This document shows positions 14,107-63,362 of a stretch of 64,000 nucleotides of DNA, piece after piece (the stretch's first letter is position 1; every line of letters starts with the position of its first letter). Origin of the DNA: a virus. The notes under the pieces were generated by a model. It made no database searches and was not told where the DNA came from. It saw only the letters and a list, made by a program, of their open reading frames with translations. The stretch lies in IMG/VR virus record IMGVR_UViG_3300036045_000316, positions 1-64,000 of that record. The stretch is one strand, 5' to 3'. The position numbers and the translations under genes are program-made.

Positions 14107-14111
14107 TAGTA

Positions 14112-22082: not shown

Positions 22083-22137
22083 AAATCGTCGTATCTTGCG
22101 CGTACCTCTCTCTAGTATGGAAGATGAGGTATTCCGC

Positions 22138-25100
22138 ATGACGGCAGTTGCCAACAATTCTTACAAGTGGGACATTCCGCCGCATTGGAACGGCGCATTG
22201 ATCACTGGCGCGACGAACACTAGTGTGAAGATGTCGCCGCATCCCGGCGCAATGATTGCCCTGTACCCCTCGCCAGAAGTGGCGCTGCGGGTGAATGAGT
22301 TTGCCACCGCGATGACGGCGATTGAACCCACATTCACGCCCGCCCACGCCGCCGATCTGCACGTCACGCTCGTCTATCTCGCCGAAGATGCAAGCGCCAT
22401 TGAGCGCGAGAAATACGAGGCGCTGTGGGAAACATTAAGCGCCGCCGTATTCTCTCCCCTCGTTGGTGCGCTGAACGGCATCGGACGCTTCACCGATCCT
22501 GACTCTGGCGCGATTTACCTCAATGTGGATAGTCCCGCGCTGCCAGAGTTCCGCCAAAAGCTGATCGATCTCGTGAAGAGCGTGGGTATCACGCCAGTCG
22601 AGAATCACGGCTTCACTCCGCATTTAACCATTGGCTACGCGCCCGTCGATAACACCCAGATGGTACTGCCGACGGTGGAGGTGATCCCCGTTGATTTCCA
22701 GCGCCTTGTGTTGGTATGGAATGGGGAGCGCACACAGTTCGAGGCGGCACGTCTTGATCCTGCTGCCGCAGAAGCCGCCCGCGCCGTCGTGGAGGCACAG
22801 ACGGTGGAACAGATCGCTGATGAAGAAGCGATGGTCACACTCGTTGATGGCGAGGGCAAGACCATCAAGGCGCTGACGAGCGAGTTGCTCGTCTCCTACG
22901 GCGGCGCGATCAAAGCGATAGCCAGCACCGCCGTGTCGCCTGATGGCAATCCTATTATGCGCGTCGGTGGCTATGTTGTGCATTGGGGTTCAGAAGACGA
23001 CAAAGACCTCGACGATCAGTATTTTGCGCCGGATACCGATTACTACCTTGGTTATTTCAGCACACGACCCGCCCTCTACCATCATGGCATCGACCTCAAG
23101 GTGAAGGGGATGAAGGTCGGCACGATTGACCACATCCATGCAGACGATGTTGGTTTATGGGCAGAAGCGCAGATCGAACTCTACAACGACTATGTTCGCG
23201 CTATTCACCAGATGGTCAAGCGCGGATTACTGAAATGGTCGTCTGGCGCACTGCCGCAACTCGTCACTGCCGCCAAAAACGGCAAAATCCTGACGTGGCC
23301 CATTGTCGAAGGGTCGCTCACACCTACTCCTGCCAAACCATTCGGGACGCTTATCGTCCCGGTTAAGGCGCTGAAAGCGCTGCCGCTGCCTGATCTGACT
23401 AAAGAGCTTATCGCTGAAGAGTCATCGGACGTGGAAGCTGCCCCTCAGCTAATGCCAGAACGGGAAACTTCGCCACAACATGAGCTTGAGCCTGAACACT
23501 CAATCATTTCGGCGAGGTTCCCTTCAAGTTCTAGTTCTAGCTCCACATCACTCGAAACGGCAGTGAACACGTCGTTAGTGACGGACGCTGCCCCCAGCAC
23601 CATAAACGAAGGTGAACCAATGACTCCTGAATCCTTACTCGTCATCCTCAAGGCGATGGCGGAAAAGTTAGGCATCCAGTTGGATGAACAGCAGCAGCAA
23701 GCTGCACTTGAGGCGGCGCTGTCCGCGTATGGTCAGTTGGCAGAAACCGTCGCGCCCGTGAGCGCCGAAGAAGCCGCCAAGATGACCGAAGAAGAGATCG
23801 CCAAGCAAGAAGAAGAAGCGGCGATGAAGGCGGTCCGCAACCCCGCGTTCTTGCAGCAGATCGCGCAGATCGTGCGCCAGTCCGTGCCCGTGCGCGAACC
23901 CGCGTTCGCGCCGACGCTCAAGACCGCCGTTGGTGCAGCCGTCGCTGCCCTGCCACCCGGTCAGTCGCAGACAGGCGCATTTCGCGGTAACGGTAACGGG
24001 AATGGCAATGGTCGCCAGCCGCATATTGAAGTGAGCAGCAAGTATGCTCGCTTGAGCGCCGAGGATATGAGCTTTGTCGCCCGCTTCATGAAGGCGATCA
24101 AGGCGCGGGATCAACAGGCATGGACGCCCGCCCCTGAATTCATGCGCGAACTTGTCGATAAGGCGGATCGCGCCATCAAGACTGGTGCTACTTACGAGAA
24201 AGAAACGCTGCGCGGCGTCAAGGCGTGGAAGGCGAACGAACTCAACTACAGCACGCTGGCGGCTGGCGGCGATGAGTGGGTGCCAACGATGTGGCTAGAC
24301 CGCATCTGGGAACTGACGCGCATCGAGAATGTGGTCGCGCCGCAGTTCATGGAAGTGGACATGCCCTCGAACCCCTATGAGTTGCCTATCGAAAGCACCG
24401 ACCCGACGGTTTCCCGCGTGGCGGAAACCAAGGACGAGACGCAGATGACGCTGGCAGCCAGCGGCAGCCCCATCCCCGACAGCAAAGTGACGACGGGCAA
24501 AGTCACACTTAACGCCGACAAACTGGCGTTGCGGGTGATGTTCAGTGAAGAAGTGGACGAAGATTCGATCATCCCCTTCGCGGGTCAACTGCGTAATCAA
24601 GCGCAGCGTGCCATCTTGGACGCCATTGACTTCGTTGATCTGAACGCCGACGACACCGCTTCAGGCAACATCAACCTCGACGGCGGTACACCCGCTGCGA
24701 CAGACAAGTACAACGTCGTCTTCAAGGGCATCATTTACACCGGACTCGTCGCCAACTCCGGCAACAACAAGGTGGATATGGGCGGCGTCGCGCCGACGCT
24801 CCAGTACATCCGCGCTGCGCGTTGGAAACTGGCATCGCGCTACGCTTCACGCCCGCAAGACCTCGTCATCTTCTGCGACGCGGCGACCTACGCCAAACTG
24901 CTCAATCTGCCCGAATTCCTGACGATGGACAAGATCGGCGCCCAAGCGACCATCGTGACGGGCATGGTCGGGCAGATCGACGGTATTCCGGTGCTGCTGA
25001 CGAACGAAATGGCGCTCGCCGCCGCTAACGGCAAGGTCAGTTCAACGGGCACGAACAACACCTTCGGGCGCTTGGTATACGCGCACAAGCCCAGCTTCTA

Positions 25101-25242
25101 TCAAGGCTATCGCCGCCGCGTGACCGTTGATCTGGAACGGTTGTCGTACTACGACTCGTGGGTGCTGACGGCAACGGTACGTCCGGCGTTCGTCGCCCGC
25201 GATGCTACTTGTGCGTCGATCCTCTACAACATCGCTGTCTAA
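22138..25242 (+). CDS. 2H-phosphoesterase / prohead protease / scaffold / HK97 major capsid fusion
   Basis: 1034 aa polyprotein. Residues about 30-215 form a 2H phosphoesterase (LigT-like) with two H-x-T motifs, LHVTLVYL (H75) and PHLTIGY (H162). About 255-420 match an S78 prohead protease, with candidate triad H315/H316 (ALYHHGID), S368/S369 (LKWSSGA) and E391 (PIVEGSLTPTPA). An S-rich linker and an acidic, glutamine-rich coiled coil (about 490-600) look like the scaffolding delta domain, followed by a GN-repeat linker. From about 635 to the end is an HK97-fold capsid (LAAGGDEWVPTMW; VMFSEEVDEDSIIPF; TAYRRRVTVDLERLSYYDS-like end). Start 22138 has GAGGT eight bases upstream; 22117 (ATG) and 22096 (TTG) are alternatives. 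The protease presumably self-cleaves. Confidence 0.88.
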   Translation: MTAVANNSYKWDIPPHWNGALITGATNTSVKMSPHPGAMIALYPSPEVALRVNEFATAMTAIEPTFTPAHAADLHVTLVYLAEDASAIEREKYEALWETLSAAVFSPLVGALNGIGRFTDPDSGAIYLNVDSPALPEFRQKLIDLVKSVGITPVENHGFTPHLTIGYAPVDNTQMVLPTVEVIPVDFQRLVLVWNGERTQFEAARLDPAAAEAARAVVEAQTVEQIADEEAMVTLVDGEGKTIKALTSELLVSYGGAIKAIASTAVSPDGNPIMRVGGYVVHWGSEDDKDLDDQYFAPDTDYYLGYFSTRPALYHHGIDLKVKGMKVGTIDHIHADDVGLWAEAQIELYNDYVRAIHQMVKRGLLKWSSGALPQLVTAAKNGKILTWPIVEGSLTPTPAKPFGTLIVPVKALKALPLPDLTKELIAEESSDVEAAPQLMPERETSPQHELEPEHSIISARFPSSSSSSSTSLETAVNTSLVTDAAPSTINEGEPMTPESLLVILKAMAEKLGIQLDEQQQQAALEAALSAYGQLAETVAPVSAEEAAKMTEEEIAKQEEEAAMKAVRNPAFLQQIAQIVRQSVPVREPAFAPTLKTAVGAAVAALPPGQSQTGAFRGNGNGNGNGRQPHIEVSSKYARLSAEDMSFVARFMKAIKARDQQAWTPAPEFMRELVDKADRAIKTGATYEKETLRGVKAWKANELNYSTLAAGGDEWVPTMWLDRIWELTRIENVVAPQFMEVDMPSNPYELPIESTDPTVSRVAETKDETQMTLAASGSPIPDSKVTTGKVTLNADKLALRVMFSEEVDEDSIIPFAGQLRNQAQRAILDAIDFVDLNADDTASGNINLDGGTPAATDKYNVVFKGIIYTGLVANSGNNKVDMGGVAPTLQYIRAARWKLASRYASRPQDLVIFCDAATYAKLLNLPEFLTMDKIGAQATIVTGMVGQIDGIPVLLTNEMALAAANGKVSSTGTNNTFGRLVYAHKPSFYQGYRRRVTVDLERLSYYDSWVLTATVRPAFVARDATCASILYNIAV
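23608..23622 (+). promoter_or_regulatory. Possible internal start for scaffold-capsid
   Basis: GAAGGTGA (23608-23615) precedes an in-frame ATG at 23620 (MTPESLLVILKAM), residue 495 of the fusion and exactly between protease and scaffold. Independent initiation here would give extra capsid subunits without the enzymatic domains. Confidence 0.45.
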
Positions 25243-41772: not shown

Positions 41773-43407
41773 ATGAACAAGAGATGGTCAAGGCTCGTCA
41801 TCTTCGGCGGCATCTCCCTTGCGGTGCTGCTGGCGTACACATGGTTTTTCCCGCCCCGTGCCGCCACGCCAACATTCACGCCCGACGTGATTGCCACCGC
41901 AGATGCAACAGCGGAAATGACAATGGACGCCCCACCTGAATCAGCGTTCGCGGTGGGGGCGGGGCGCGTCGATATTGCCATCAGCGGGGGATCGCCGATG
42001 CCCATTTTCGCGGCGACGGAGACGCCGAACGACGGTGTTGGCGGTGCGGCGACAGTCGCGCTCGATTGGGTGACGATCTCCGGGCGGAGTCTCTCGTACA
42101 AGGGCGCGGCGCTGTACCTGCGCGGGACGAACTTCGCCAACATCAACGCGCTGGGGGCGCTGACCACGCCGACGGATCGCATCGGCACAGGCGATCCGCG
42201 CGATGTGCTGACGACGTTTGCCGACTACCAGAAGTTGCGCGAGATGGGCGGCAACCACGTCCGCCTCGGCTTGGATTACTACTGGTACATCAAGCACACC
42301 GACGCCTTCTGGTCAATGCTGGATCAGCAGGTAGGCTACGCCGAACAAGCGGGGGTACATCTGCTGCTGCTCAGTTTCGGCAATCCCTCGAAGAATGGCA
42401 CCGACTCCTGCTACGAAGGCTACAGCGAAGTCTGCGATCTGTGGGACAGCAGCATCAATCAGAGCCGACTGATCGAATGGTGGGCACTCATCGTTGAACG
42501 TTACAAGAGCCGTCCAGCGGTGATCGGCATCGATCCGGTCAACGAGCCAACGGTAGGACCGAACCAGAACTGGCAAACCGACCACTACTGGCGCATCGCC
42601 GAACGCCTGCGCGATCAGGTGGTCGCCATCAACCCCAACATCCTTATATTCATCGAAAGCGGAGCGGACGCGCAGTTCACGCGGCTGCTCGGCAGAAACG
42701 TAGTCTACCAAAGCCACTATTACACGCCATTGGCAGGTACGCACTGCGATTACGTGGAGCCGCGCGACTATGTGACTTATCCCGGCGCTGCGCCGCTGTA
42801 TGACCAGCGCCGTCCCTATTTCGACGCGGAAACCCTTGCCAACCCCGATCATCCCGCCAGCATCTACCAAGCGGTGCAGTCCATCGCATGGGCGAAGGCA
42901 CGGAATGTCCCTTTGTATATCGGGGAATGGGGCGTTGCCAGTCCGAATTGCTATCGCGGCGGCGTCCAGTATATGGCGGATGTGGCGGCGATCTTCAATG
43001 CCGAAAGGCTGCATTGGGCGTATTACTCGTGGCGGGCGACGGAACGACGCTGGGGGACATTCCCCGAATACGGCGGACTCACGCCCTACTCGCCAGCGAA
43101 ATACGACATGCTCGTTGCCGCGTTCGGGCAAGCGCAGAATCCACCAGTAGGAGCGACACTGACGCCGCGTGCCACACAGACCGCCACCAGCACCATGACC
43201 GCCACCCCGACGCGACGGATCACGGCAACGCCCCGCACACCCGTGCCGACGAATACCTCGCGTACACCAACGGTTACGCTTGCGCCGACGCAGCCGTTTA
43301 CCCGGACGCCAACGCCAATCTTCCAGCCGACCTGCGCCGTTGGTCAGACGCTGGTTGAACTGATCGTCGGTGGTAGACGTGCCAGCCTGTGCGCGTGGGT
43401 GCAGTGA
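41773..43407 (+). CDS. Membrane-anchored GH5-type glycoside hydrolase
   Basis: 544 aa. N-terminal anchor (residues 7-25), then a (beta/alpha)8 barrel from about 100 to 450. The acid/base is E258 in IGIDPVNEPT and the nucleophile E385 in LYIGEWGV; other clan A features are YLRGTNFANI and GGNHVRLGLDYYW. A T/P-rich linker (about 455-520) and a short cysteine-containing end follow. It may cut a cell-surface glucan or mannan at lysis or entry. It overlaps the next gene's start region. Confidence 0.85.
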   Translation: MNKRWSRLVIFGGISLAVLLAYTWFFPPRAATPTFTPDVIATADATAEMTMDAPPESAFAVGAGRVDIAISGGSPMPIFAATETPNDGVGGAATVALDWVTISGRSLSYKGAALYLRGTNFANINALGALTTPTDRIGTGDPRDVLTTFADYQKLREMGGNHVRLGLDYYWYIKHTDAFWSMLDQQVGYAEQAGVHLLLLSFGNPSKNGTDSCYEGYSEVCDLWDSSINQSRLIEWWALIVERYKSRPAVIGIDPVNEPTVGPNQNWQTDHYWRIAERLRDQVVAINPNILIFIESGADAQFTRLLGRNVVYQSHYYTPLAGTHCDYVEPRDYVTYPGAAPLYDQRRPYFDAETLANPDHPASIYQAVQSIAWAKARNVPLYIGEWGVASPNCYRGGVQYMADVAAIFNAERLHWAYYSWRATERRWGTFPEYGGLTPYSPAKYDMLVAAFGQAQNPPVGATLTPRATQTATSTMTATPTRRITATPRTPVPTNTSRTPTVTLAPTQPFTRTPTPIFQPTCAVGQTLVELIVGGRRASLCAWVQ

Positions 43408-43409
43408 TC

Positions 43410-46184
43410 ATGTTCTGTAACCCCATCGGCGCGTCGGCAGCCGAACGCGACAGCGGCGTTTGCCCGCCGGGACATTGGTTCGACGCCACGCCCTTCGGCA
43501 AGGAATACGATGCGCCGAAGGGACGCGCCATCCATACCGGCGCGGACTTCAACTGCAATAAGCCTGTATGGAACGCCGACGCGCATACGCCCGTGTGGGC
43601 AATTGGTGACGGCACGGTCATTGACGCCAGAGAGTGGGCAGTGTGGGGCAACGTGATCGTCATCCAGCACGCCGATACGCCCGACGGCAAACCCGTGTAC
43701 GCCCGCTACGCCCACGTCGAACAGATGGAGGTCATTAAAGGTCAGCGCGTCCGAAAAGGTCAGCAGATCGCCCGCGTCGGCAACGCCTATGGTCAGCAGC
43801 CTTACCACCTGCACTTCGACATCAGCCAGACGGACATCTTGAGAGGGAAACCCTCACATTGGCCCGGGATGAACGAGGATGCGCTCCGTGCTAACTACGT
43901 TGATCCGATCCAATTCCTGCGAACCTACAACAGTGGCAACGGGGACGACGACAGGGGCAAGCCGATCCGCCTGCAAGTGCATGGCGGTGGCTTAAATATC
44001 CGCGCCGCCGCGACGGTGACGAGCAAGGTGATGGGCGCTCTCGCAGCGGGTAGTGAGATTGAAGTGTATGCCAAGCCGCGACCCGATCCCGCCTCCAAGT
44101 ACACCTTCGTCGCCCTCGTTGATGGCAGGGGCTGGGTTGCCCGCGAATTTCTGAAAGAGCCATCGGCGGCACAAGTCACTTTTATACGCTACGTTCAACC
44201 TGTGGACGGCGCGAACGTCCGCGCCGCGCCCAAACTGGCAGCAACGGTGCAGTACGCCCTGCCGTTTCGCCGTCTCGTGGTCGTAGACGCCGCGCTGATC
44301 GATGATCCGGCATCGGGACTAGCGTGGCGGCGGATGGCGGATGGCAGTGGTTACGTCGCCGACACGTTGCTCAGTAGCACGATACCCGCCTTACCGTCAC
44401 CGGAACCGTTGCCTAATCCGAGACCCGCGCTCCCAACGACGCTGGGCACGAGCGTCGGCGTCCACGTCGCCTTCAACGGTAACGCCGGCGATCTGCTGGG
44501 CGTGGTCGAGCGCCTAGCCCAGAAGGGGACGCCTGTACCGCTGGTGGTGGCTGTCTCCGATACCGATTTGTGCGCGGCGATCAAGCAGGTCTCGCCCACG
44601 ACGACAACGGTGTACCGCTACGTGGAAGGGGAGACCGATCCGCGCCCGTTCGGGGAGGACGAGAATGCCGACGGGTGGCATGACGGCGCGGCGTGGTTCG
44701 ACAGTTTCTGGCAGCATCACGGCAAGGTCAAGGGCGTCGATTTCCACCAGATGTACAACGAGGTCTCGTTCGCGGATAATGTGCAGAGCGAAGCGTATGC
44801 GCGGCGGGTAAATGCGTTCGAGTTGGCGCTGATGCGGCGGGCAAACGAGTGCGGCGCAAAAGTAACCATTGGCAACTACATGCCCGGTGTACCAGAACAA
44901 CGCCATATCGAACAACTCCGCCCGGCGCTGGCATTCGCCGAGCAGCACGGTCATGCACTGTGCTACCATGCGTATACGAGTGCCAAAAACGATGTCTCAT
45001 TCATGACGGACAGCGATTATTACGCGCTGCGTTGGGTGAAATGGGTGGCGGATTACCCCCGCTTGCGGGTGATCTTAGGCGAGGCGGGGCACTTCCGCGC
45101 CCCCCGTTTTCGCGGCGTCGCCGATTTGGTGACGATGTTCGGCGCACTGGATAAGCTGCTGCTGCCGCTGCGGATGGCGGGGCGGCAAGTGGACGCCGCC
45201 TATTGGACGATTCGCGGGCAACTTCATCTCAAATGGCGGAACGACGATTGGACAGCGCACCTCAGTAATTACGAGCAGTACGCCGGAACGACGATCTTTC
45301 AGATCGCACCTATGCCGCAACCGCAGCCCGTACCTTCACCAAGTCCCCTACCGTCACCAGCGCCCGCGCCTGCTTGGACGCACGGCATCGACCACAACGA
45401 AGCGGGACTCGGCGCATCGGCTGGTGGCTGGCGTCCCAGCGTCGATGAACTGAATACTTTCCGCCGTAACAACATTCGTCATACCCTGATCGTGGCTTAC
45501 GAGCCAAATCAGGCGGCGGGTGCTATCGCCGATTTCCGGCGAGTGGGCGTGACGCGCTTCATCATTCGGGCGGCGGTGCATCTGAACGCGCAGAATCCCG
45601 ATCCCGGCAGTGCCGCCGAATTCACCGCCAAGACCTTGCCACATCTAAGCGAGTATGCCGCTGCGCTGGGCGGCTCGAAGGACATGATGATCCAGTTGCA
45701 CAACGAGCCGAACGCAGTAGGCGAGGGTTTCGCCAGCCGCTGGAAGGATGGCATCGACTACGCCAAGTGGCATCTGGAGGTGGCAAAGGCGTATCGCCGT
45801 GCCTTGCCCGGCTGCCGGATCGGATTCGCGGCACTCAGTCCGGGCGGGAGCATGTCCGGTGTTCGCGGTGATGAAGCGCGTTTCGTGCGCGAGGCAGCGG
45901 CGGCAATAGCTGATTCGGATTGGGTGGCAGTGCATTACTATTGGGCAAAGGAGGATGGCAGCGACATCGCGCCGCCCATTGACGACTGGCGCAAGTGGTA
46001 CGGGAGTAAGGCGCTCGTGGCGACGGAAGTGGGTCCGGGTAATGACATCGCGGTCACGACGGCGACAGCACGTCTGGCAAGGGTAGCGTTCAAGGCGATC
46101 CGCGTGCCCGATATTGAGTGGGTAGGCAGCGGCGCGGGTGCATGGAGGAACGCCGATTGGACGCTGCGACATATCCAGATGTAG
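43410..46184 (+). CDS. Modular lysin: M23 peptidase, two SH3b, two GH-A barrels
   Basis: 924 aa. The M23/LytM endopeptidase occupies residues about 20-170, with metal/catalytic residues H42 and D46 (HTGAD), H102 (YAHV) and H133-L-H135. Two SH3b-type cell-wall-binding repeats follow (LNIRAAATVTSKVM and ANVRAAPKLAATVQ). Then come two TIM-barrel glycosidase-like domains. In the first, E451 (MYNEVSF) and E558 (VILGEAGHF) are candidate catalytic acids. In the second, after a P/S linker, they are E766 (LHNEPNA) and E873 (ATEVGPG). No signal peptide is visible. GTG 43404 (GTGA overlap) is an alternative start. It is far larger than ordinary endolysins, so it could also be virion-associated. Confidence 0.85.
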   Translation: MFCNPIGASAAERDSGVCPPGHWFDATPFGKEYDAPKGRAIHTGADFNCNKPVWNADAHTPVWAIGDGTVIDAREWAVWGNVIVIQHADTPDGKPVYARYAHVEQMEVIKGQRVRKGQQIARVGNAYGQQPYHLHFDISQTDILRGKPSHWPGMNEDALRANYVDPIQFLRTYNSGNGDDDRGKPIRLQVHGGGLNIRAAATVTSKVMGALAAGSEIEVYAKPRPDPASKYTFVALVDGRGWVAREFLKEPSAAQVTFIRYVQPVDGANVRAAPKLAATVQYALPFRRLVVVDAALIDDPASGLAWRRMADGSGYVADTLLSSTIPALPSPEPLPNPRPALPTTLGTSVGVHVAFNGNAGDLLGVVERLAQKGTPVPLVVAVSDTDLCAAIKQVSPTTTTVYRYVEGETDPRPFGEDENADGWHDGAAWFDSFWQHHGKVKGVDFHQMYNEVSFADNVQSEAYARRVNAFELALMRRANECGAKVTIGNYMPGVPEQRHIEQLRPALAFAEQHGHALCYHAYTSAKNDVSFMTDSDYYALRWVKWVADYPRLRVILGEAGHFRAPRFRGVADLVTMFGALDKLLLPLRMAGRQVDAAYWTIRGQLHLKWRNDDWTAHLSNYEQYAGTTIFQIAPMPQPQPVPSPSPLPSPAPAPAWTHGIDHNEAGLGASAGGWRPSVDELNTFRRNNIRHTLIVAYEPNQAAGAIADFRRVGVTRFIIRAAVHLNAQNPDPGSAAEFTAKTLPHLSEYAAALGGSKDMMIQLHNEPNAVGEGFASRWKDGIDYAKWHLEVAKAYRRALPGCRIGFAALSPGGSMSGVRGDEARFVREAAAAIADSDWVAVHYYWAKEDGSDIAPPIDDWRKWYGSKALVATEVGPGNDIAVTTATARLARVAFKAIRVPDIEWVGSGAGAWRNADWTLRHIQM

Positions 46185-52923: not shown

Positions 52924-53208
52924 ATGGTCTCTATCGTTGATAACAAAACCGTTGGTGAAGTACAGGTGATCGGCTTCGCCAACCACGAAAGCGAAGTGAT
53001 CAACGTGCTGCGCTACTCCATCAACAACTACGAATGGCAGCATGTCATCGTTGAAAACATCGATCAGTTGATGGGGGCGATTCGGGACGAAGTTGAAAGT
53101 TGCCTTGACACGGAAACGTTGGAGTACGGACTAATCATCCATGTTGATCGCGCCCGCATGACCCGCGCCGCGTTCAACGCTTTGCAGCCGCTTGAGGAGT
53201 GGGGCTGA
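52924..53208 (+). CDS. Small unknown protein before the integrase
   Basis: 94 aa, alpha/beta. Its stop overlaps the integrase start (TGATG at 53206-53210), so the two are co-translated. It could be an excisionase-like partner by position, but it lacks a clear HTH. Confidence 0.5.
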   Translation: MVSIVDNKTVGEVQVIGFANHESEVINVLRYSINNYEWQHVIVENIDQLMGAIRDEVESCLDTETLEYGLIIHVDRARMTRAAFNALQPLEEWG

Positions 53209-54191
53209 TGGCACATCGCCGACCCGGACGCCCAAGGAAACCCACCGTAGCCGAAGCGACGGAGAGCTTTCTGCGCTCCAAATCACTGCGGGCGACGCCA
53301 CACTACATCGCCACGATCACGGGCTTCATGCGCTACTTCGTGGACTACTACGGGCATCGCACCGTGAGTAGCTTGAGCATCGACGATATGGAAGAGTACG
53401 CCGTGTACCTCCAGAATCTTGATGTCAAGTTTGCCGCGCACCCGCGACGGTATCCGGTTGCCGAAAAACTGAGCAAGACGACGATTGACTCGCACCATCG
53501 GACGCTGCGGGCGTTCTTCAACTGGCTGATCAAGCGCCCCGAATACGGCGTCAAGGCAAACCCGATGTTGGAAGTGCCGCGCCCGCGCATCTTCGACAGC
53601 GATGTGCGGATCAAGCGGGTGGAGTGGTTGACGTACAAGAGGCTGATCGAGGCGGCGAGGACTTTAGAAGGTGCTGCCCAGAAGCGGGCGCTGGCGATCT
53701 TGTACATGCTGCCAGACACCGGATGCCGTGCAGCAGGCTTGTGCGGCTTGAAGTGGGCGGATGTCGATCTGGCAGAGCGCCGCGCCCACGTCGTTGAAAA
53801 GTTCGGCAAAGGGCGCTATGTATGGTTTTTGGTCAACACCCGTCGCCAGCTTGAGGAATGGAAGAAACACGCGCCTAAGTCGGAATACGTGTTCTGCTCC
53901 ATCCGCCCACACGATCTTGGTCAAGCGCTCACGCCGTCGGGACTGTATCAAATCCTGACCGACCTCTCCCGCCGCGCCAAATTGGAGCGCGACAAGTGGG
54001 TATCGCCGCACGACCTGCGGCATATGTTCGCCACCTACGCCGATGAGAAGGGCATCCCTATCGCTTACTTGCAGGCGCTGATGGGGCACGAACGCGCCGA
54101 AACGACGGCACGCTACATCCATCGCAGCGGCGAAGCGCTGCGGCTGGCACACGACAAATACAGCCCGCTGCTCGACCTGCTGCTCGAATAA
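53208..54191 (+). CDS. int: Tyrosine recombinase / phage integrase
   Basis: 327 aa. N-terminal SAM-like core-binding domain (residues about 15-120), catalytic domain from about 140. The conserved tetrad is visible: R in DTGCRAAGLCGLKW, K in KFGKGRY, H-x-x-R in SPHDLRHMFATYA, H in LMGHERAETTARY and the nucleophilic Y of ARYIH. It carries out site-specific integration, and its gene ends about 340 bases from a tRNA-Gly-derived attachment site. Confidence 0.93.
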   Translation: MAHRRPGRPRKPTVAEATESFLRSKSLRATPHYIATITGFMRYFVDYYGHRTVSSLSIDDMEEYAVYLQNLDVKFAAHPRRYPVAEKLSKTTIDSHHRTLRAFFNWLIKRPEYGVKANPMLEVPRPRIFDSDVRIKRVEWLTYKRLIEAARTLEGAAQKRALAILYMLPDTGCRAAGLCGLKWADVDLAERRAHVVEKFGKGRYVWFLVNTRRQLEEWKKHAPKSEYVFCSIRPHDLGQALTPSGLYQILTDLSRRAKLERDKWVSPHDLRHMFATYADEKGIPIAYLQALMGHERAETTARYIHRSGEALRLAHDKYSPLLDLLLE

Positions 54192-54531: not shown

Positions 54532-54591
54532 GTAAGCGGGCGACGAGATTCGAACTCGTGACCTTCTCCTTGGCAAGGAGACTCTCTAGCA
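54532..54591 (-). other. attP: attP-like site: 3' half of tRNA-Gly(GCC)
   Basis: Read on the minus strand, it contains the anticodon arm TCTCC-TTGCCAA-GGAGA (anticodon GCC at 54574-54572), a variable loop, the T-arm ACGAG-TTCGAAT-CTCGT and acceptor 3' strand CGCCCGC with discriminator T, as in bacterial tRNA-Gly. There is no matching GCGGGCG or D-arm on the 5' side, so it is a fragment, not a working tRNA. With the integrase next door this is best read as the phage attachment core that would rebuild the tRNA 3' end on integration. Confidence 0.8.
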
Positions 54592-54706
54592 CTCCCTCTC
54601 CAACTTTGCTCCACTTCACGATAACCATATTACGGTAAAGCTGCAAGATCACGCTGACTAGAAACATCCGGCGACGCTGAGTCGCTGTTCAGAGGATTGC
54701 TTAACG

Positions 54707-56152: not shown

Positions 56153-56985
56153 ACGGGGATCGGCTGATGACGGGCGTGGATAGGCGGGAAGCAGTGGTGA
56201 TGATTTGTAGATTTTGCGGAGTAGAGGGAACGGGTGAAGCATTCAATCTTTGGGTAAAGCCGACGTTCACGGATTGGGACAAGTTGCTGCCCGGCGACAT
56301 CATCTGTGATGACTGTGCATTCTGGTTCGATGAGGCAAGCGAAGTGCTGACTGCCCGTACTGGTAAAGACAAGTTACAGCGAATGCGGAACTACAGCCAC
56401 TTCGTCCTCAATGGAGAGTGGACGCCACTAAGCAAAGGGGACAAGGCGCAGATGCAGGCGTTCTTGTGCGCTGATGTGTTCCCCGAACTCGCCGTCATCG
56501 CCGAGTCGGGGCAGAAGCATATTGTTTTCCGTGCTACGCGCAATCCCGTCGGATCGTCCGCTGGCTGGGTGCAATTCGAGGAACATTCACTGTGGGTTGA
56601 TCCTCCCCAGCTTCGCGCACTCATTGAGCGCGTGGAGGAACTTTACGTAACCTTCTCTAAAACAGAGATCGAGACGGGGAATTATCAGTCGCATCGCATC
56701 CTGAAATTTGGGGTACGGCGGTGGATGGAGGCAGACGGGGCAATTAAGCCACTGCGCGGATCACCACTGCTGGCATTGGCTTTGTTTCTAGCACAAAGGA
56801 GTGAAGATGACGCAGGAGGAACTACGGAATCAGGCGGCGGCGCTGCTGCTGCAAATGTGGCTGGGGCTGGGCAGCGACCTGAAATCGAGGTACCGGATGA
56901 GCATCTGGACGCAGTTCGAGGATCAGATACGCAGCGCAGCGTACACGAACAATCTGGGGAAATTCGTCAACTCTCTCTGTTCTAA
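56149..56985 (+). CDS. csf1: Type IV CRISPR-associated Csf1 (Cas8-like)
   Basis: 278 aa from the ATGA overlap at 56149. It is the large-subunit-like protein of type IV effector complexes. The family's zinc finger is present: C20-FC23 (CRFCG) and C53-DDC56 (CDDC), with VKPTFTDWDKLLPGD between. The middle (QKHIVFRATRNPVGSSAGWV; ILKFGVRRWMEADGAIKPLR) fits Csf1. The last 60 residues are G/A-rich where they overlap the next gene out of frame, ending in QLSLF, a match to the bacterial sliding-clamp-binding consensus. First gene of the csf cluster, coupled to the replication gene. Confidence 0.82.
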   Translation: MNGDRLMTGVDRREAVVMICRFCGVEGTGEAFNLWVKPTFTDWDKLLPGDIICDDCAFWFDEASEVLTARTGKDKLQRMRNYSHFVLNGEWTPLSKGDKAQMQAFLCADVFPELAVIAESGQKHIVFRATRNPVGSSAGWVQFEEHSLWVDPPQLRALIERVEELYVTFSKTEIETGNYQSHRILKFGVRRWMEADGAIKPLRGSPLLALALFLAQRSEDDAGGTTESGGGAAAANVAGAGQRPEIEVPDEHLDAVRGSDTQRSVHEQSGEIRQLSLF

Positions 56986-57169
56986 GCTAGATGCTGTGAT
57001 TGGCAAGAACGCCGAGGGGCGGGCAATTGCGGAGCGCATCCTGAACAGCGGGCAAGATCGGCAACTCCTCAAACTGATGCGCGAGGAGACGGTACTACTC
57101 GTCCTCATGGTGCGAATTGAAATGCAGAATCGTCGGGAAGAATATGAACAGGAGAATCGCAATGAATGA
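56807..57169 (+). CDS. cas11: Probable Cas11-like small subunit of the type IV complex
   Basis: 120 aa, all-helical, between csf1 and csf2, the place and size of Cas11 in type IV-B loci. ATG 56807 has AAAGGAG six bases upstream. It overlaps csf1 by 179 bases in another frame. Helices: MTQEELRNQAAALLLQMW, SIWTQFEDQIRSAAYTNNL, GRAIAERILNSGQDRQLLKL. Cas11 proteins diverge fast, so the call rests on context, size and helicity. Confidence 0.6.
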   Translation: MTQEELRNQAAALLLQMWLGLGSDLKSRYRMSIWTQFEDQIRSAAYTNNLGKFVNSLCSKLDAVIGKNAEGRAIAERILNSGQDRQLLKLMREETVLLVLMVRIEMQNRREEYEQENRNE

Positions 57170-57401
57170 CGAATTATCTAACTGGGAAAAGGGCGATTGC
57201 TATTCCATAGATACATCAGAATGGTATCCGCGTGGCATTGCTACCATTTTCATTTTGCCTTTTTGCAACAGATTGAGTCATTGGATGTGGATCGGCGTGG
57301 CGGGAACCGGGGAGATAGTGGTTAGCCGCGATGGATTCTCAACGCCCCAAGCTGCGGCGGCAGCAGTCGATGAATACTTGAGCGCACAGGAGAACAACTA
57401 A
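57162..57401 (+). CDS. Unknown small protein inside the csf cluster
   Basis: 79 aa between the Cas11-like gene (8-base overlap) and csf2 (one-base overlap). A W-rich alpha/beta protein (LSHWMWIGVAGTGEIVVSRD; STPQAAAAAVDEYLSA) of the same general style as the small protein at 63359. It is not a standard type IV component and may be an accessory or an unrelated passenger. Confidence 0.6.
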   Translation: MNDELSNWEKGDCYSIDTSEWYPRGIATIFILPFCNRLSHWMWIGVAGTGEIVVSRDGFSTPQAAAAAVDEYLSAQENN

Positions 57402-58366
57402 TGCATACTTACATCTTTGAGGGAGTGATGACGGCGCTGACGAGCATCAGTCACATCGGCGAGAGTCACGGCATCAATGCCCGTCTGCGACGCGAGAAGG
57501 TGATACAGCCGGATGGTAGCGTTGAGGAAGTGCCGATCCTCTCTGGTAATGCGATTCGCGGCATCTTGCGAGATCGGGGGATGCTGCACATGCTCAAGAC
57601 GCTCGGCTACGGCGTCAATGCTGAAACGGGTGAAGTAGCGGGACTGTCGCTGGCAGCGTTCTACTTTTTGTTTTCCGGTGGGGCGTTGACGAAGGACACC
57701 ACGCGAGGATTAGACGTTGAATCGGCGCGGCGCTGGCGCAGCCTAATCCCACTGGTCGGCGTGTTTGGTGGCGCGATGGGCAACCAGATCATGCCGGGTA
57801 AGGTAAAAATCGGTAAAGGTATCCCCATCTGCATGGAGACGGCGCACCTTCTACCTGACAGCTTGCGCGGTACTCCCGTTTCCTCCGTGTGGGATATGTG
57901 CCAAGAGGAGGCGTATACGCGCCGCGACGACGAAAAGAATGAACAACTGCGCCAACTCATCCAGCCAGAAACACGCAAGCTGCTCGATCTGGATCGAGCG
58001 CTCGGACGCGACAAGATGGATGACGCGGTTGAGGATACCGGACAGAAACAGCAGATGCGCTACTACGTGGAAACATTAGCCGCTGGATCACGATTCTTCT
58101 GGGAGATTGCGCTGGACGATGCAACGGACATTGAATTTGAGGCGTTCTGCGTAACGCTGGCGGAATTCGGACGTCTGCCATATCTCGGCGGCAAGAGCGC
58201 AACAGGACACGGCAAGGTGAGTATCCAGTTCGATAACTGGGTAGAAATTAACCCCCGTCTTGCGCCGACGGGACAGGCGATTAATTTCACGCTCGGCACG
58301 CGCTATCTCCAGCATCTCAGTGAACGCGGCGATGAGATACGGGGACTCATCCATGAGCTATCGTGA
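57401..58366 (+). CDS. csf2: Type IV CRISPR-associated Csf2 (Cas7 backbone)
   Basis: 321 aa RAMP-fold protein that would polymerise along a guide RNA. Strong Csf2 hallmarks: SISHIGESHGINARLRREKV, QPDGSVEEVPILSGNAIRG, FYFLFSGGALTKDTTRGLD and VGVFGGAMGNQIMPGKVKI. RNA-binding strand region YVETLAAGSRFFWEIAL and glycine loop LPYLGGKSATGHGKV follow. Length is normal for the family. AGGAG lies upstream. It overlaps csf3 by 14 bases. Confidence 0.9.
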   Translation: MHTYIFEGVMTALTSISHIGESHGINARLRREKVIQPDGSVEEVPILSGNAIRGILRDRGMLHMLKTLGYGVNAETGEVAGLSLAAFYFLFSGGALTKDTTRGLDVESARRWRSLIPLVGVFGGAMGNQIMPGKVKIGKGIPICMETAHLLPDSLRGTPVSSVWDMCQEEAYTRRDDEKNEQLRQLIQPETRKLLDLDRALGRDKMDDAVEDTGQKQQMRYYVETLAAGSRFFWEIALDDATDIEFEAFCVTLAEFGRLPYLGGKSATGHGKVSIQFDNWVEINPRLAPTGQAINFTLGTRYLQHLSERGDEIRGLIHELS

Positions 58367-59033
58367 TCGCTACCACTTGCAGCCGTTGGGTGTACGCGCT
58401 TACTTGCGTACACCAGTGGTGAGCGATAGCTTCCTGCCCCTCGATGGCTTGCTGCTGTATCAGGCGCACCGCGACATCGAGGAAGCGCAGATGATGACGA
58501 CACCCGGCGCGTACACCTCGCAGGCGGTATCTACGCTGCCACTGGGCATCCTGCATCCGGGCAAACGGCAGTGGTATTACCAATGCTCGTGGGCGCAGTG
58601 GGGGCGCAACACGGAAGGACAAGATCATTGGAACAAGCGTTTCGACAACTCCCTTGCCAGCTTGATTGATTTTCAGGGAAAAAGCGGCAGGATACTCATC
58701 GATAAGGGCGAATACAAGGCATATCGCACACCAATTTACTATCGTGCGGCGCTCTATGTCGAATGGTACTGCATCGGCGACCAGCGAGAAATCGCGTACC
58801 TGCTGTCTACGATGACGCACGTTGGCAAAAAGGGAGCGCAAGGATGGGGGCGAGTGTACCGATGGGAGATAGCGCCTGTTGCTGACGATTACAGCGTGTG
58901 GTATGGGGATAGGCTGATGCGCGGCGTTCCACCGGAGGAAGCGCCACGCTACCAGACGGGGGTGTACGGCATCCGTCCGTCGTATTGGAACAAGGGCAAT
59001 CAAATGCTGCTGGCGCTGCCAGAAAGGACGTAG
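58353..59033 (+). CDS. csf3: Type IV CRISPR-associated Csf3 (Cas5)
   Basis: 226 aa from ATG 58353 (MSYRDRYHLQPLGVRAYLRT). RAMP protein expected to cap the 5' end of the guide. Csf3 features: LDGLLLYQAHRDIEE, HWNKRFDN, DKGEYKAYRTPIYY, VEWYCIGDQREIAYLLSTM, then the glycine-rich THVGKKGAQGWGRVYRWEI and a C-terminal VYGIRPSYWN. Intact and of family length. Confidence 0.88.
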   Translation: MSYRDRYHLQPLGVRAYLRTPVVSDSFLPLDGLLLYQAHRDIEEAQMMTTPGAYTSQAVSTLPLGILHPGKRQWYYQCSWAQWGRNTEGQDHWNKRFDNSLASLIDFQGKSGRILIDKGEYKAYRTPIYYRAALYVEWYCIGDQREIAYLLSTMTHVGKKGAQGWGRVYRWEIAPVADDYSVWYGDRLMRGVPPEEAPRYQTGVYGIRPSYWNKGNQMLLALPERT

Positions 59034-59035
59034 TG

Positions 59036-60526
59036 ATGCTGTCGATGGCGATTCTCGATTGCAATTCGACGCTCAAAGACGACGACCATTTCGTTGAGAT
59101 TACCTCCGTTGTCGGACAGTGGTTGCGCTATGAAGTGGAAAAGGCAGGACTCATCGCTGTTTCCCCTGCTGACTGCGACGTACTTTTTCTAGTGCATTCG
59201 GGCGAACTGGATTTCCGTTGGAATGTGCGAGAAGGATTAAAGCGACTCGGCATCGAATGGGACGCCGAAAAGCGGAAGCGTCCCTATATCATCACTGGGG
59301 GGGCAGTAGATACCGCGCCGTTCATGGCGCTGACGATTGCTGACGGTCTGGCAGTGGGTGAGGCGTACACCTTCGTGCGGGAAGTGCTGCGTATTGTGAA
59401 AACAGGCGGGGACGTGCAGGACATTCGCGCATACATCACGGCGTATCCGCACGCGCTGGAGCGTCAGCAATTGGCGGACTTCGAGGCAGATCGAGATGCG
59501 CCTTGGCTGCTGACGAGCGCCCCTCCCGCGCTGGCATCCCCTGATCCCTACGTGGATTGGGGGGATATGCCCGCGTTCGTCAGCGATGACAACGTAGCAC
59601 GCCTGATGGCATCGAAGGGGTGTCATCTGAAATGCACCTTCTGCGCCACCACCTACCGTCAAACGTATCGGGTGAATGATCGCCCGGACATTCTAGTGCA
59701 GCAGATGCGCGAATTAAAAGCGAACAAGCAGGGCGTGTCGTTCATCACCAACGACGCGGGGGAACTTCCCTTCCTTGAGGATGTCGTCAATGAGGGGATG
59801 CTGCAATTCCAGTCGATGACGGTAAAGAGTATGCGCGATCCCCACACCCGCGAGATCATCACCCGCCGCCCGCTGAAGATTGTTCGCTTTGGCGTGGAGG
59901 GCATTTCAGAGCGCATCCGGGTCGCCTTCGGCAAGTCCATCAGCAACGCGGAATTACTGGACCTGCTGCACGATCTCCGCCATATCTACAACGCCGAACA
60001 GGATAAGACGCGGGCGCAGATGGTACGGCTGTTCTTCATCGTCGGCGCACCTTACGAGGACGAGTCCGACTGGGACAATTTGCGCGAATTCATACTCGGC
60101 AAAAACGGACTGGCGAAACAGGTAGAACAAGGCGTGGTGCAACTGAAATTCACCGCCTTCAATCCGCAGCCGCCCACGCCGCTGATGTATTTCGTCCCTA
60201 GCCGCGCTTACTGGCTGCGTTACCAGCAGTTAGAGAACAGCATGGTTATCAGCCGCGCTGAACGCGAACAGCACACCGGACGTTTTTCCAATCACGTCTG
60301 GGTCATGTCGCCGCGCTCACCCAAGAACCATGCCCGCGACTTCGCTGACAACCACCAGCTTACGCCCAGTCAGGCAAACGCCCTGTTTAACACTTACAAA
60401 ACCCGCGATCTAGCGCCGACAGTGGATCATGCGCGTCGCTTTGGCTGCGAAGTGATCCGCTGGCCAATTCCCTTGGAGATTCGCTATCGGGCTTCGCGGG
60501 TGTACCAGAAGCGGATGACGACGTGA
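59036..60526 (+). CDS. Radical-SAM enzyme associated with the csf cluster
   Basis: 496 aa, two bases after csf3. The N-terminal 180 residues look like a Rossmann/B12-binding-like domain (CDVLFLVHSGELDF; PYIITGGAVDTAPF). The radical-SAM core carries C196-xxx-C200-xx-C203 (KGCHLKCTFCATTYRQ) for a [4Fe-4S] cluster; VRFGVEGISERIRVAFGKSI, then LFFIVGAPYEDESDW are typical later barrel strands. The C-terminal 130 residues are family-specific. Organisation is like MiaB/B12-type radical-SAM enzymes, but the substrate is unknown. Type IV-B loci usually carry a CysH-like gene near csf genes; here this gene occupies that place. Confidence 0.85.
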   Translation: MLSMAILDCNSTLKDDDHFVEITSVVGQWLRYEVEKAGLIAVSPADCDVLFLVHSGELDFRWNVREGLKRLGIEWDAEKRKRPYIITGGAVDTAPFMALTIADGLAVGEAYTFVREVLRIVKTGGDVQDIRAYITAYPHALERQQLADFEADRDAPWLLTSAPPALASPDPYVDWGDMPAFVSDDNVARLMASKGCHLKCTFCATTYRQTYRVNDRPDILVQQMRELKANKQGVSFITNDAGELPFLEDVVNEGMLQFQSMTVKSMRDPHTREIITRRPLKIVRFGVEGISERIRVAFGKSISNAELLDLLHDLRHIYNAEQDKTRAQMVRLFFIVGAPYEDESDWDNLREFILGKNGLAKQVEQGVVQLKFTAFNPQPPTPLMYFVPSRAYWLRYQQLENSMVISRAEREQHTGRFSNHVWVMSPRSPKNHARDFADNHQLTPSQANALFNTYKTRDLAPTVDHARRFGCEVIRWPIPLEIRYRASRVYQKRMTT

Positions 60527-60601: not shown

Positions 60602-61423
60602 ATGAAGGTCATGGCAACACATATCGGTAAGGGCGGCGACGGCAAGACCACGCTGACGAAGCATCTGGCGCAGGGATTGGCGGAAGCGGGCAAGCGCGTG
60701 CTGCTCATCGACGCCGATGTGCAGGCACATGCGACGTGGTCGTTCGGACACAACGCCGAGGACTGTCTGTACCGCTTAATGGTCAAGGGCGATTCGTGGC
60801 GGGATGTGATCCGCACCCCTGATCCGACCAAGTACCCGGAATTGTATCAGGACAGAAGAGGCTCTCTGCAAGCGATGTTGTATCTGGTGCCGGGCAACAG
60901 GGAGACCGCGGTGATCACCCTGCTTTTGCACGATGACAAGCTGCTCCGGCGGCGCTTGGCGGAATTGGAGGGCATCTTCGACTACGTACTGTTCGACACC
61001 AGTCCCGAAGCGGGGCTATTCGTCGGCTCGATCTTGATGGCGGCGACGCACGTCCTCGTGCCCTGCCAGCCGACGCCGCTGTCGGTGCAAAGCCTGATCC
61101 GCACGATGACGGCGCTGCAAGAAGCGCCACACTTAACGGTGCTGGGCATCCAGCCGACGCTGTTCGATGGGCGAACCGTTGAGCACGCCTCGCGGTTGGA
61201 GGATATGCAGCAGCGCTATGGCGATTTGGTGTGGACGCCGATCACCGAACGAAAGGCGTGGGCGACGGCGAGTGGGCAGCGGGCGGTGGTGTGGAAGGCA
61301 CGTCCGACATCCCCAGCGGCGCGAGAGGCGCGGGCGTTCGTGCAGCGGGCGCTGGCGGCGTTTGGCGAGACGAGCAGCGTTGAAGCGGAAGCAGAAGGAG
61401 TGCGCGATGCCGCCGAAGTCTAG
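60602..61423 (+). CDS. parA: ParA-family partition ATPase
   Basis: 273 aa from ATG 60602 with GGAAGGAG upstream. Deviant Walker A KGGDGKTTLTKHLA (residues 10-23), Walker A' LLIDADVQAHAT, Walker B VLFDTSPEAG, and the ALVPCQPTPLSV-like later motif (HVLVPCQPTPLS). Plasmids, phage-plasmids and chromosomes use such ATPases for segregation. Overlaps the next gene by 17 bases, as in par operons. Confidence 0.9.
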   Translation: MKVMATHIGKGGDGKTTLTKHLAQGLAEAGKRVLLIDADVQAHATWSFGHNAEDCLYRLMVKGDSWRDVIRTPDPTKYPELYQDRRGSLQAMLYLVPGNRETAVITLLLHDDKLLRRRLAELEGIFDYVLFDTSPEAGLFVGSILMAATHVLVPCQPTPLSVQSLIRTMTALQEAPHLTVLGIQPTLFDGRTVEHASRLEDMQQRYGDLVWTPITERKAWATASGQRAVVWKARPTSPAAREARAFVQRALAAFGETSSVEAEAEGVRDAAEV

Positions 61424-62126
61424 GACGAGTGTGGATTACGAGGAAAGCGGGGCGTCAGCGGGGTGGCAGGATGCTGCCCATGTGTGGGGCTTGGATCTGC
61501 CCACGTTGGCGCAGGCGGGCAAGCATATCCAGCGCACGGATGCGGGCTTGCGGATCGACGGCTTCACGCTGACCGAGAACGGCTTGCTGGCGGATGACGA
61601 TGTGACGCAGGCGCAGTGGTCGGCGCTGGGGGAACTGTTTCGGCAGTTCTCCAAGACGATGCGCTGGTGGATCGGCGACTGGATGAATGCAGCGGATGAG
61701 CAGTGGGGCGATAAGTACACGGCGGCGATGGCGCTGACGGGGCTGAAGTACGGATCGCTGCGTAATCTCGCTTACGTGTGCGGCTCGGTAGATTTGTCAT
61801 GGCGACATGACAAATTGACGATTCAACACGGACTGCTGATCGCCCCGCTGGATGACGAGGCGAAAGAATACTTCGCGCAGCAGATCGCCGAACAGGGTTG
61901 GTCGGTGCGGCGCTTGATGGCGGAGATCGCCGCGTCGAAGGGGGAGCAGGTGGATGCCCCCCCTTCGACGGCTGTTGCTGCCAAGCGCGTGCTGACGGCG
62001 ATGAAGCAGATTGCCAGCGCCCTGAACGCCCAGCAGCGCATCGATCCGGCGCACATCGCGGCGGTGCGAGATTGGCTGTCACAGGTGGAAGCCAGTGGGT
62101 TAGTTACCGAGAGTGAGGGGCATTGA
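61407..62126 (+). CDS. ParB-like / HTH partner of ParA
   Basis: 239 aa. Residues 40-165 match plasmid and phage DNA-binding proteins found beside ParA: LRIDGFTLTENGLLADDDVT, ALGELFRQFSKTMRWWIGDW, AMALTGLKYGSLRNLAYVC (HTH), then EYFAQQIAEQGWSVRRLMAEI. No ParB CTPase (GERR) motif is seen, so it is probably a centromere-binding protein of another kind. ATG 61407 follows AAGGAG. Confidence 0.7.
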   Translation: MPPKSRTSVDYEESGASAGWQDAAHVWGLDLPTLAQAGKHIQRTDAGLRIDGFTLTENGLLADDDVTQAQWSALGELFRQFSKTMRWWIGDWMNAADEQWGDKYTAAMALTGLKYGSLRNLAYVCGSVDLSWRHDKLTIQHGLLIAPLDDEAKEYFAQQIAEQGWSVRRLMAEIAASKGEQVDAPPSTAVAAKRVLTAMKQIASALNAQQRIDPAHIAAVRDWLSQVEASGLVTESEGH

Positions 62127-62521
62127 TGCACCAGATTTACACCACTGGCTACTTGGGGTGGACGCAAGATCAATTGTTCGCAGCGGTGCAGGGGATGAAC
62201 GCGCTGCTGGTGGACATCCGCTACTCGCCGCAAAGTCGTTATCCCGCGTGGAGAGTGGCGGCACTTCAACAAGCGCTCAGTGGCGATTACGTACACCTGA
62301 AGGCGCTGGGGAACGCGGCGTACAAAACTGGCGGGATGGTGATCGCCGACTACCCGGCGGGGTTGAAGTTCATCGCCGAAACGGTGATCGAGCGTCCGCT
62401 GGTGCTGCTGTGCGCGTGTCCTCATCCGGATCGCTGTCACCGCACGGTGGTGGGGGAGATGCTGCGGAACGATGGGTTTGCGGTGGCGGAGTTGGAGAGG
62501 GGCGGCACTGGATATGAATGA
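62126..62521 (+). CDS. DUF488-family protein
   Basis: 131 aa from the TGATG overlap at 62126. It shows the DUF488 pattern: YTTGYLGWTQDQLFAAV, LLVDIRYSPQSR and the C-terminal LLCACPHPDRCHRTVVGEML with conserved C and H. Role unknown; such genes recur in phages and defence or modification loci. Downstream of the par genes and probably co-transcribed. Confidence 0.8.
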   Translation: MHQIYTTGYLGWTQDQLFAAVQGMNALLVDIRYSPQSRYPAWRVAALQQALSGDYVHLKALGNAAYKTGGMVIADYPAGLKFIAETVIERPLVLLCACPHPDRCHRTVVGEMLRNDGFAVAELERGGTGYE

Positions 62522-62564
62522 GCAGATTGGTCGTCCGAGCAGGCGGTGGGAGGAAGGATAACGC

Positions 62565-63362
62565 ATGAACAAACAGAATCCGGGCATCGAGTGGACGCAT
62601 CGGTACGGACCGCACACGGGCTACACGTGGAATCCGCTGCAAGGCTGCGATCATGACTGCCAGTGGCGGATGCCCGACGGCACGATAGCAGGTTGCTACG
62701 CGAAGGCGATTGCGGAAAAGTTCAAGAGCGCGTCGTTCTTCCCCCAAGGCTTCGAGCAGCACTACTGGCATCCGAGCAAGCTCGACGAGCCGTTGAAGTT
62801 GACCACGCCAGCGGGCATCTTCTTGGATTCCATGTCCGACCTGATGAGCCGGCGCGTCCCTGAAGGACAGATCGAGCAGGTGCTGGAGGTGTGCCGTCGG
62901 GCGCACTGGCACACCTTCTTCCTGCTGACCAAGAACGCGCCGCGCCTACGGCAGTTTCAGTTTCCGCCGAATGTGTGGGTGGGAGCGAGTGCGCCGCCGA
63001 CGTTTATGTATGGCAAGGAACTCGACCTCGACCAGCAGCGGCGGATGCTCGGCAAGACGCTGGACATCCTCGCCACGACTGATGTGCCGGTGCGTTGGTT
63101 GAGCATCGAGCCGCTGTCGTTCGACGTGTCTAGCGTGCTGACTTACGCCCACATCGAGTACGGACAGGCGATCCAGTGGGCGGTGATCGGCGCGGCGACG
63201 AACGGCGCGAAGGTGTATCAGCCGCATCCTCATCTCGTGCGGCGGGCGATTGAGCAACTGCGGGAGATGGGCGCGGCAATTTTCTTCAAAGGCAACCTAC
63301 GCGGCAACGCGGCGGCGGCTGTGTGGCTGGAGGAGTTTCCGGCAGTGGAGGAGACTAGATGA
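62565..63362 (+). CDS. Phage Gp37/Gp68 family (DUF5131) radical-SAM-like protein
   Basis: 265 aa with a GGAGGAAGGA ribosome site. Family hallmarks: IEWTHRYGPHTGYTWNPLQG, C-DHD-C, then an insertion MPDGTIAG before CYAKAIAEKF; IFLDSMSDLM, HTFFLLTKNAPRL, VWVGASAPP, WLSIEPLSFD and GAATNGAKVYQPHPH. Found in many phages; the cysteines probably bind an Fe-S cluster. Substrate not established. Confidence 0.85.
   Translation: MNKQNPGIEWTHRYGPHTGYTWNPLQGCDHDCQWRMPDGTIAGCYAKAIAEKFKSASFFPQGFEQHYWHPSKLDEPLKLTTPAGIFLDSMSDLMSRRVPEGQIEQVLEVCRRAHWHTFFLLTKNAPRLRQFQFPPNVWVGASAPPTFMYGKELDLDQQRRMLGKTLDILATTDVPVRWLSIEPLSFDVSSVLTYAHIEYGQAIQWAVIGAATNGAKVYQPHPHLVRRAIEQLREMGAAIFFKGNLRGNAAAAVWLEEFPAVEETR

Follow-up and report, generated by a model that had tools for sequence, protein, structure and literature searches.

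The type IV-B systems, in which the core genes csf1, cas11, csf2 and csf3 are accompanied by the gene for CasCysH, are described as strictly conserving this cysH-like gene (PMC8175902); what does it mean, then, when an enzyme of a different fold occupies its position? Here, we address this question for a 64,000-nucleotide stretch of viral DNA (hereafter, the window) that comprises nearly all of one 64,584-bp IMG/VR record, IMGVR_UViG_3300036045_000316, in which a gene for a radical S-adenosylmethionine (rSAM) enzyme, at positions 59036..60526, closes a csf operon. An initial annotation of this DNA, made from the sequence alone, had described a 496-residue protein with a CxxxCxxC motif and a Rossmann-like N-terminus, encoded 2 bases after csf3, and had proposed that it replaces CysH. 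The Csf2 protein of type IV-B binds RNA (PMC8175902), and, in the summary given in PMC8175902, a Csf filament from Mycobacterium sp. JS623 was assembled on RNA (PMC7937560).

A type IV-B operon that ends in a radical SAM gene

The operon consists of the following genes, in order.

56200..56985, plus strand: csf1 (type IV Cas8-like, with an N-terminal C4 zinc finger); PADLOC Csf1_0_IV, 1.2e-22
56807..57169, plus strand: cas11 (small subunit); PADLOC Cas11_1_IV, 2.1e-27
57162..57401, plus strand: open frame of 79 aa in the interval between cas11 and csf2
57401..58366, plus strand: csf2 (Cas7-like backbone); PADLOC Csf2_0_IV, 4.5e-83
58353..59033, plus strand: csf3 (Cas5-like); PADLOC Csf3_0_IV, 9.4e-52, and NCBIfam TIGR03116, 1.9e-18, under its cut-off
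59036..60526, plus strand: rSAM gene in the cysH position; Pfam, alignment of relatives and structure model

The last gene starts with an ATG at 59036, 2 bp behind the end of csf3 (59033), and runs to a stop at 60526; the 496-aa product carries CxxxCxxC as C196-C200-C203. The coordinates, the Pfam match and the PADLOC identities of the csf genes all agree with the initial annotation. As in type IV-B, the four core genes keep their customary order and are carried by a mobile element, with neither a CRISPR array nor dinG nor cas6, and csf2 is 54-73% identical, over its full length, to the csf2 of 17 CysH-type viral loci; csf1 is homologous to the csf1 of loci L002-L018. Unlike type IV-B, the window lacks the subtype-specific cysH-like gene and has the rSAM gene in that position. 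Unlike type IV-A, the whole record contains no match to DinG-type helicases (PF13307) or Cas6 (PF10040); csf5 models were not run record-wide. No exact spaced repeats indicative of a CRISPR array were detected in the 64-kb window by a simple repeat scan, nor was an array found in a gathering-threshold Rfam scan.

A cysH gene elsewhere in the record was ruled out, given that the CysH family (PF01507) has no match in the entire 64,584 bp and that a CysH profile built from related loci has none in the six-frame translation of the window. Thus, the locus is a variant of type IV-B that shares the core of the subtype and lacks its cysH feature, and that is undescribed in the open literature searched: queries combining type IV/csf2 or CysH with radical SAM yielded only unrelated matches among open-access full texts, a scope that leaves out subscription papers and preprints and does not prove priority.

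The 79-aa frame sets the window apart from most related loci, in which cas11 is directly joined to csf2; neither Pfam nor NCBIfam nor PADLOC yielded a match to the longer frame that surrounds it (57117-57401).

Mutual exclusion of CysH and radical SAM genes

Scans for csf2, which, like all our collection scans, were pattern-based and not exhaustive, yielded 22 further viral loci with both csf2 and csf3, along with 2 contigs from metagenome-assembled genomes (MAGs) titled Chloroflexi and Anaerolineaceae. All 24 of these loci encode a CysH-like protein (PAPS_reduct; for example, 2.4e-19 in L003 and 1.3e-9 in L013, and at 11524-12369 of L011 by the CysH profile), the gene lying downstream of csf3 in 19, often overlapping it or one small gene off, and between csf2 and csf3 in the other 5. 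A CysH-like gene is likewise present in the csf locus of Skermania phage SPI1 and in 12 plasmid loci from Rhodococcus, Mycobacterium, Cellulosimicrobium, Xylanimonas, Frondihabitans and three haloarchaea. In the six Rhodococcus and Mycobacterium plasmids, it is located upstream, in the opposite orientation, and in Natrinema and Halomontanus it encodes a DUF3440 protein ~1.1-1.3 kb downstream of csf3.

Altogether, the csf2+csf3 loci number 41, with a CysH-like gene in 37, the rSAM gene in 4, and no locus that has both or lacks both. Were the loci independent, such exclusion would arise by chance with a probability of 1/C(41,4), ~1e-5, a figure that is only indicative because they are not. Two contigs with a truncated csf2 and no csf3, L019 and L020, were left out of the tally. 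In these phage contigs, csf2 is broken after ~153 residues (L019 6372-6920, L020 178-726) and both csf3 and cysH are missing, the picture of a decayed type IV locus; L036 (9411-11444) contains two tandem csf3-like genes after csf2-cysH.

The four rSAM loci are those of the window, L073 (cas6-csf1-cas11-csf2-csf3-rSAM, on a contig that also has a portal gene), L069/L077 (csf1-csf2-csf3-rSAM, downstream of an integrase) and L063/L076 (csf1, a probable cas11, csf2, csf3 and rSAM). In each, the rSAM gene directly follows csf3, abutting it or overlapping it by a few bases, so that the two are probably co-expressed. The initial annotation had taken the co-occurrence of homologues with cysH as a sign against replacement; no PF01507 match was detected in any rSAM-bearing record examined, including the four csf-rSAM records (64.6, 16.8, 43.2 and 82.1 kb), whose contigs may be incomplete. 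An aimed search for more loci of the L063/L069 type recovered only those two. The Cas6 gene of L073 (7524-8300; PF10040 6e-15, PADLOC Cas6 5e-51) directly precedes csf1, although IV-B systems are described as being without crRNA processing; no array was found in that locus.

Recurrent exchange in csf lineages

In a careful Csf2 tree of 39 loci, at least three changes between CysH and rSAM are forced by supported branches, and a quick Csf3 tree likewise forces three. All 15 companions of the window in its 16-locus clade (96/87) are CysH loci, L073 is joined to the CysH-carrying L041 (100/99), and L076 and L077 together occupy a third place; with rSAM loci in three places among CysH loci, the swap recurred. 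A single rSAM clade was rejected by the approximately unbiased (AU) test (p-AU 2.9e-6), which rules out a single origin of all csf-rSAM loci, and so was a grouping of the window with L073 (p-AU 8.2e-6). In the tree of the rSAM proteins themselves, the csf-linked members fall into at least two separated clades, one uniting the window and L073 with L072, L060, L071 and L075 (100/100) and the other consisting of L063 and L069 (100/100); therefore, rSAM entered csf loci more than once.

The exclusive distribution and the repeated, independent exchange strongly support the initial proposal that the rSAM gene stands in the place of cysH, and substitution of the rSAM enzyme for CysH in csf loci appears very probable.

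Sequence, fold and relatives of the radical SAM protein

The protein passes the Pfam Radical_SAM threshold (33.5 versus a cut-off of 29.5 bits, E 5.9e-8), resembles Radical_SAM_N2 in its N-terminal domain under the cut-off (E 2.3e-4), and scores far under every NCBIfam cut-off. The structure model is confident (predicted local distance difference test, pLDDT, 85.7; predicted template modeling score, pTM, 0.84) and consists of an rSAM barrel preceded by a Rossmann domain, so that the N-terminal fold anticipated in the initial annotation is present in the predicted structure. The best Foldseek matches were MgmA (9ccb, E 8e-12), MtaB (9a6d, 1.6e-10) and MiaB (7mjv, 4.5e-9), followed by TokK, TsrM, RimO, AprD4, OxsB and CysS; this set comprises methylases and methylthiotransferases that act on proteins, tRNA or antibiotics, as well as sugar dehydratases. 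Judging from the model, the protein may work like an rSAM enzyme of the MgmA/MtaB/MiaB-type fold.

The predicted fold is similar to those of the cobalamin-type (class B) rSAM methylases and of MiaB/MtaB, at a sequence identity of 13-16%. The three cysteines of CxxxCxxC are invariant in 11 aligned relatives. All 11 family members lack the DxHxxG cobalamin motif, and none of them has conserved cysteines beyond CxxxCxxC, the N-terminal auxiliary-cluster cysteines of the methylthiotransferases (MiaB/MtaB/RimO) being missing; therefore, we do not file this family under either the cobalamin or the methylthiotransferase families. Because some cobalamin rSAM enzymes lack DxHxxG, use of B12 is possible nevertheless.

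A single-sequence query with the window protein, whose search patterns were too narrow, gave no match among viral contigs, GTDB genomes, 72,556 plasmids and 50,697 phages. Relatives surfaced only with an alignment query, which included one Radical_SAM_N2-type protein and recovered L060 (40% overall identity to the window protein), and then with the hand-made degenerate motifs FGxEGxSER and GCxxxCxFCAT. The 11 distinct members that were aligned include L073 (49% identical to the window protein), L072, L060, L071 and L075 (37-41%), and L063, L069, L064, L065 and L066 (17-19%). Among 400 genomes from the phylum to which L043 belongs, a MAG titled Chloroflexi, 18 encode distant Radical_SAM_N2-type proteins (24-31% identity). 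Chromosomal TIGR03960-like proteins share the layout of Radical_SAM_N2 plus rSAM over residues ~46-394, whereas the motif RFGxEGxSERxR and a distinct C-terminus are peculiar to the phage and csf family; in the rSAM tree, all but one of the 10 chromosomal rows are set apart in a supported group.

ParB-like genes as a second apparent partner

The initial annotation had also taken a lack of csf linkage in most homologues as a sign against replacement, and this sign is present in part: of the 11 distinct members, 4 are csf-linked, and in 5 others (L060, L064, L065, L066 and L072) the rSAM gene comes immediately after a ParB-like gene (profile E 2e-19 to 1.5e-91), usually with overlapping ends. In most of these five contigs, the pair is followed by a small gene and then the terminase. 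Contig L071 starts with the apparent end of a ParB-like gene, so that the rSAM gene is probably behind ParB-like there too, and in L075 a ParB-like gene is nearby and non-adjacent. The L060 ParB-like protein matches phrog_620 (ParB-like partition protein, 1.1e-36) in PHROGs and has no match in Pfam; its structure model is poor (pLDDT 59) and was not used. We know of no description of a two-gene phage module that consists of a ParB-like and an rSAM gene.

CysH-like genes, too, adjoin ParB genes in cultured phages, namely, Kamiyu, Wheelbite, Gaia, PY3 and CV-1-33. The order is PAPS reductase-ParB-terminase in Mycobacterium phage Kamiyu and ParB-PAPS reductase-ParB-methyltransferase-helix-turn-helix-terminase large subunit in Arthrobacter phage Wheelbite; in Mycobacterium phage Gaia, PY3 and CV-1-33, PAPS reductase/DUF3440 and ParB genes overlap slightly. 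Within type IV-B neighborhoods, the DUF3440 gene of Halomontanus, located downstream of csf3 at a distance of ~1.3 kb, has a 4-bp overlap with a ParB gene, with a similar arrangement in Natrinema, and in Actinarchaeum csf3-cysH is followed downstream by ParB and by another gene for a PAPS reductase. The rSAM pairs resemble the IbrA/IbrB phage pairs (CysH-like DUF3440 plus ParB-like) in placing an enzyme for the chemistry next to a ParB-like gene, immediately ahead of the terminase in several phages, and differ from them in that the enzyme is an rSAM protein in the five contigs; in the window, the partner is Csf where the pairs have a ParB-like protein. Thus, exchange between CysH-like and rSAM enzymes seems to take place in two partnerships, with Csf and with ParB-like proteins, and the presence of CysH-like genes in the ParB slot strengthens the case for the exchange in csf loci.

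ParB-like phage genes also neighbor DNA-modification genes: in Arthrobacter phage Sonali (L083), one directly precedes the genes for TGT (tRNA-guanine transglycosylase), QueC, QueD and QueE, a 7-deazaguanine cassette, and in Shade one lies beside a Mom-like DNA-modification gene.

Other features of the record

By its phage genes (terminase, portal, head, integrase), the record is a tailed phage or prophage.

15124-16590: terminase large subunit
16587-18434: portal
22096-25242: major head protein
43389-46184: peptidase/endolysin-like
53199-54191: integrase
60602-61423: ParA, downstream of the rSAM gene

The 1048-aa frame at 22096-25242 matches major head protein families and, over residues 85-199, the RNA ligase family phrog_14859 (8e-11). 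A tRNA-like Rfam match (54535-54598, minus strand, 31.8 bits; no ARAGORN call) adjoins the integrase gene and is possibly an attachment site. Near the csf operon, at 62123-63362, are genes for DUF488 and DUF5131 (phage Gp37/Gp68), the latter at 62565-63362; Natrinema (L094) likewise has a Gp37/Gp68 gene on the upstream side of its type IV-B locus, and in L011 a protein of similar appearance is encoded downstream (14009-14866).

Discussion

We propose, with a probability of roughly 0.5, that the rSAM protein serves a type IV-B-like Csf system as its accessory enzyme, having displaced the unrelated CysH in an overlapping role, and provides an alternative chemistry that modifies bases or nucleotides. 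Under this proposal, CysH-like PP-loop enzymes and rSAM proteins would be alternative chemistries for one shared partner. The task of the Csf filament, or of the ParB-like protein, would be to select or present a nucleic acid whose bases the accessory enzyme would modify, by ATP-driven adenylation or thiolation in the CysH route and by radical C-H functionalization, resembling methylation or methylthiolation, in the rSAM route. Downstream, this could protect, mark or regulate phage or competitor nucleic acid. Modification of nucleic acid is the most likely role because the enzyme has as its partner either a filament that binds RNA or a ParB-like protein and because ParB-like phage genes adjoin DNA-modification genes; that the substrate is in fact a nucleic acid or a nucleotide seems to us an even bet. 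The shared chemical step on RNA or nucleotides suggested in the initial annotation is likewise hypothetical, and an Fe-S nature would be putative for the type IV CysH.

Several observations weigh against this proposal. There are only four csf-rSAM loci, all on metagenomic viral contigs and none from a cultured virus, and the long branches of L076 and L077 make the third placement in the Csf2 tree unsure, the placements of the window and L073 being independent of them. CasCysH has no known substrate by which to judge a shared chemistry, and, with neither DxHxxG nor extra conserved cysteines, neither B12-dependent methylation nor methylthiolation is confirmed. Finally, a co-activator function in the expression of prophage genes is ascribed to IbrA/IbrB (PMC4490671), and Sandt 2002, as cited in PMC10434257, is credited with describing IbrAB as activators of prophage gene expression, which could mean a protein-directed or signaling role.

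This last point, together with MgmA, the nearest fold, being a methylase of a glutamine in McrA, makes a protein target the main rival: the rSAM enzyme would replace CysH and act on a Csf subunit, the host RNA polymerase or another host factor, or else make a small signaling molecule. We consider this rather unlikely, though worth serious attention, given that tRNA is the substrate of MiaB and MtaB, which follow in the ranking of folds, and that the context consists of nucleic-acid-binding partners (the RNA-binding Csf2 and ParB-like proteins) and DNA-modification genes. It is improbable that the enzyme is supportive and not an effector, supplying an Fe-S cluster or another cofactor or modifying a guide-like RNA before loading and so letting Csf work without CysH; the apparent translational coupling to csf3 (a 2-bp gap or short overlaps) fits such a role, but the family pairs with ParB-like genes where Csf is absent. 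Even less probable is a passenger, that is, a phage auxiliary metabolic gene that landed behind csf3 by chance and is unrelated to the loss of cysH. Both cysH and rSAM genes are frequent in phages as presumed metabolic genes (PMC9723712), but four contigs share the csf3-rSAM junction, spanning three lineages of csf and two or more clades of rSAM, and the anticorrelation with cysH is exact, so we reject this explanation. An assembly chimera or mis-joined contig is extremely unlikely and is likewise rejected: the contigs are metagenomic, but the arrangement recurs in L073, L069/L077 and L063/L076, and the overall and third-position G+C of the rSAM gene (0.571 and 0.69) agree with those of csf3 (0.571 and 0.683) and thus give no sign of one.

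Returning to the accessory-enzyme proposal, we tentatively extend it to a broader possibility, which we regard as doubtful at present, that type IV-B Csf complexes and phage ParB-like proteins are interchangeable targeting modules for interchangeable modifying enzymes, CysH-like or rSAM, and that type IV-B performs selective base modification and is neither an interference system nor an RNA sponge.

These findings bear on the function of the type IV-B systems and of their cysH-like gene. That CysH was repeatedly displaced by an enzyme whose fold is unrelated suggests that what the accessory protein brings is chemical activity and not only a binding surface. This weakens models of the Csf complex alone as a passive RNA sponge, and the candidate chemistry is narrowed to reactions within the reach of both a PP-loop ATPase and an rSAM enzyme. 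The parallel exchange beside ParB-like genes connects type IV-B with cultured phages that carry IbrA/IbrB-type pairs, such as Gaia, Kamiyu and Wheelbite, and therefore existing laboratory phages open the proposed role of these enzymes to a direct test.
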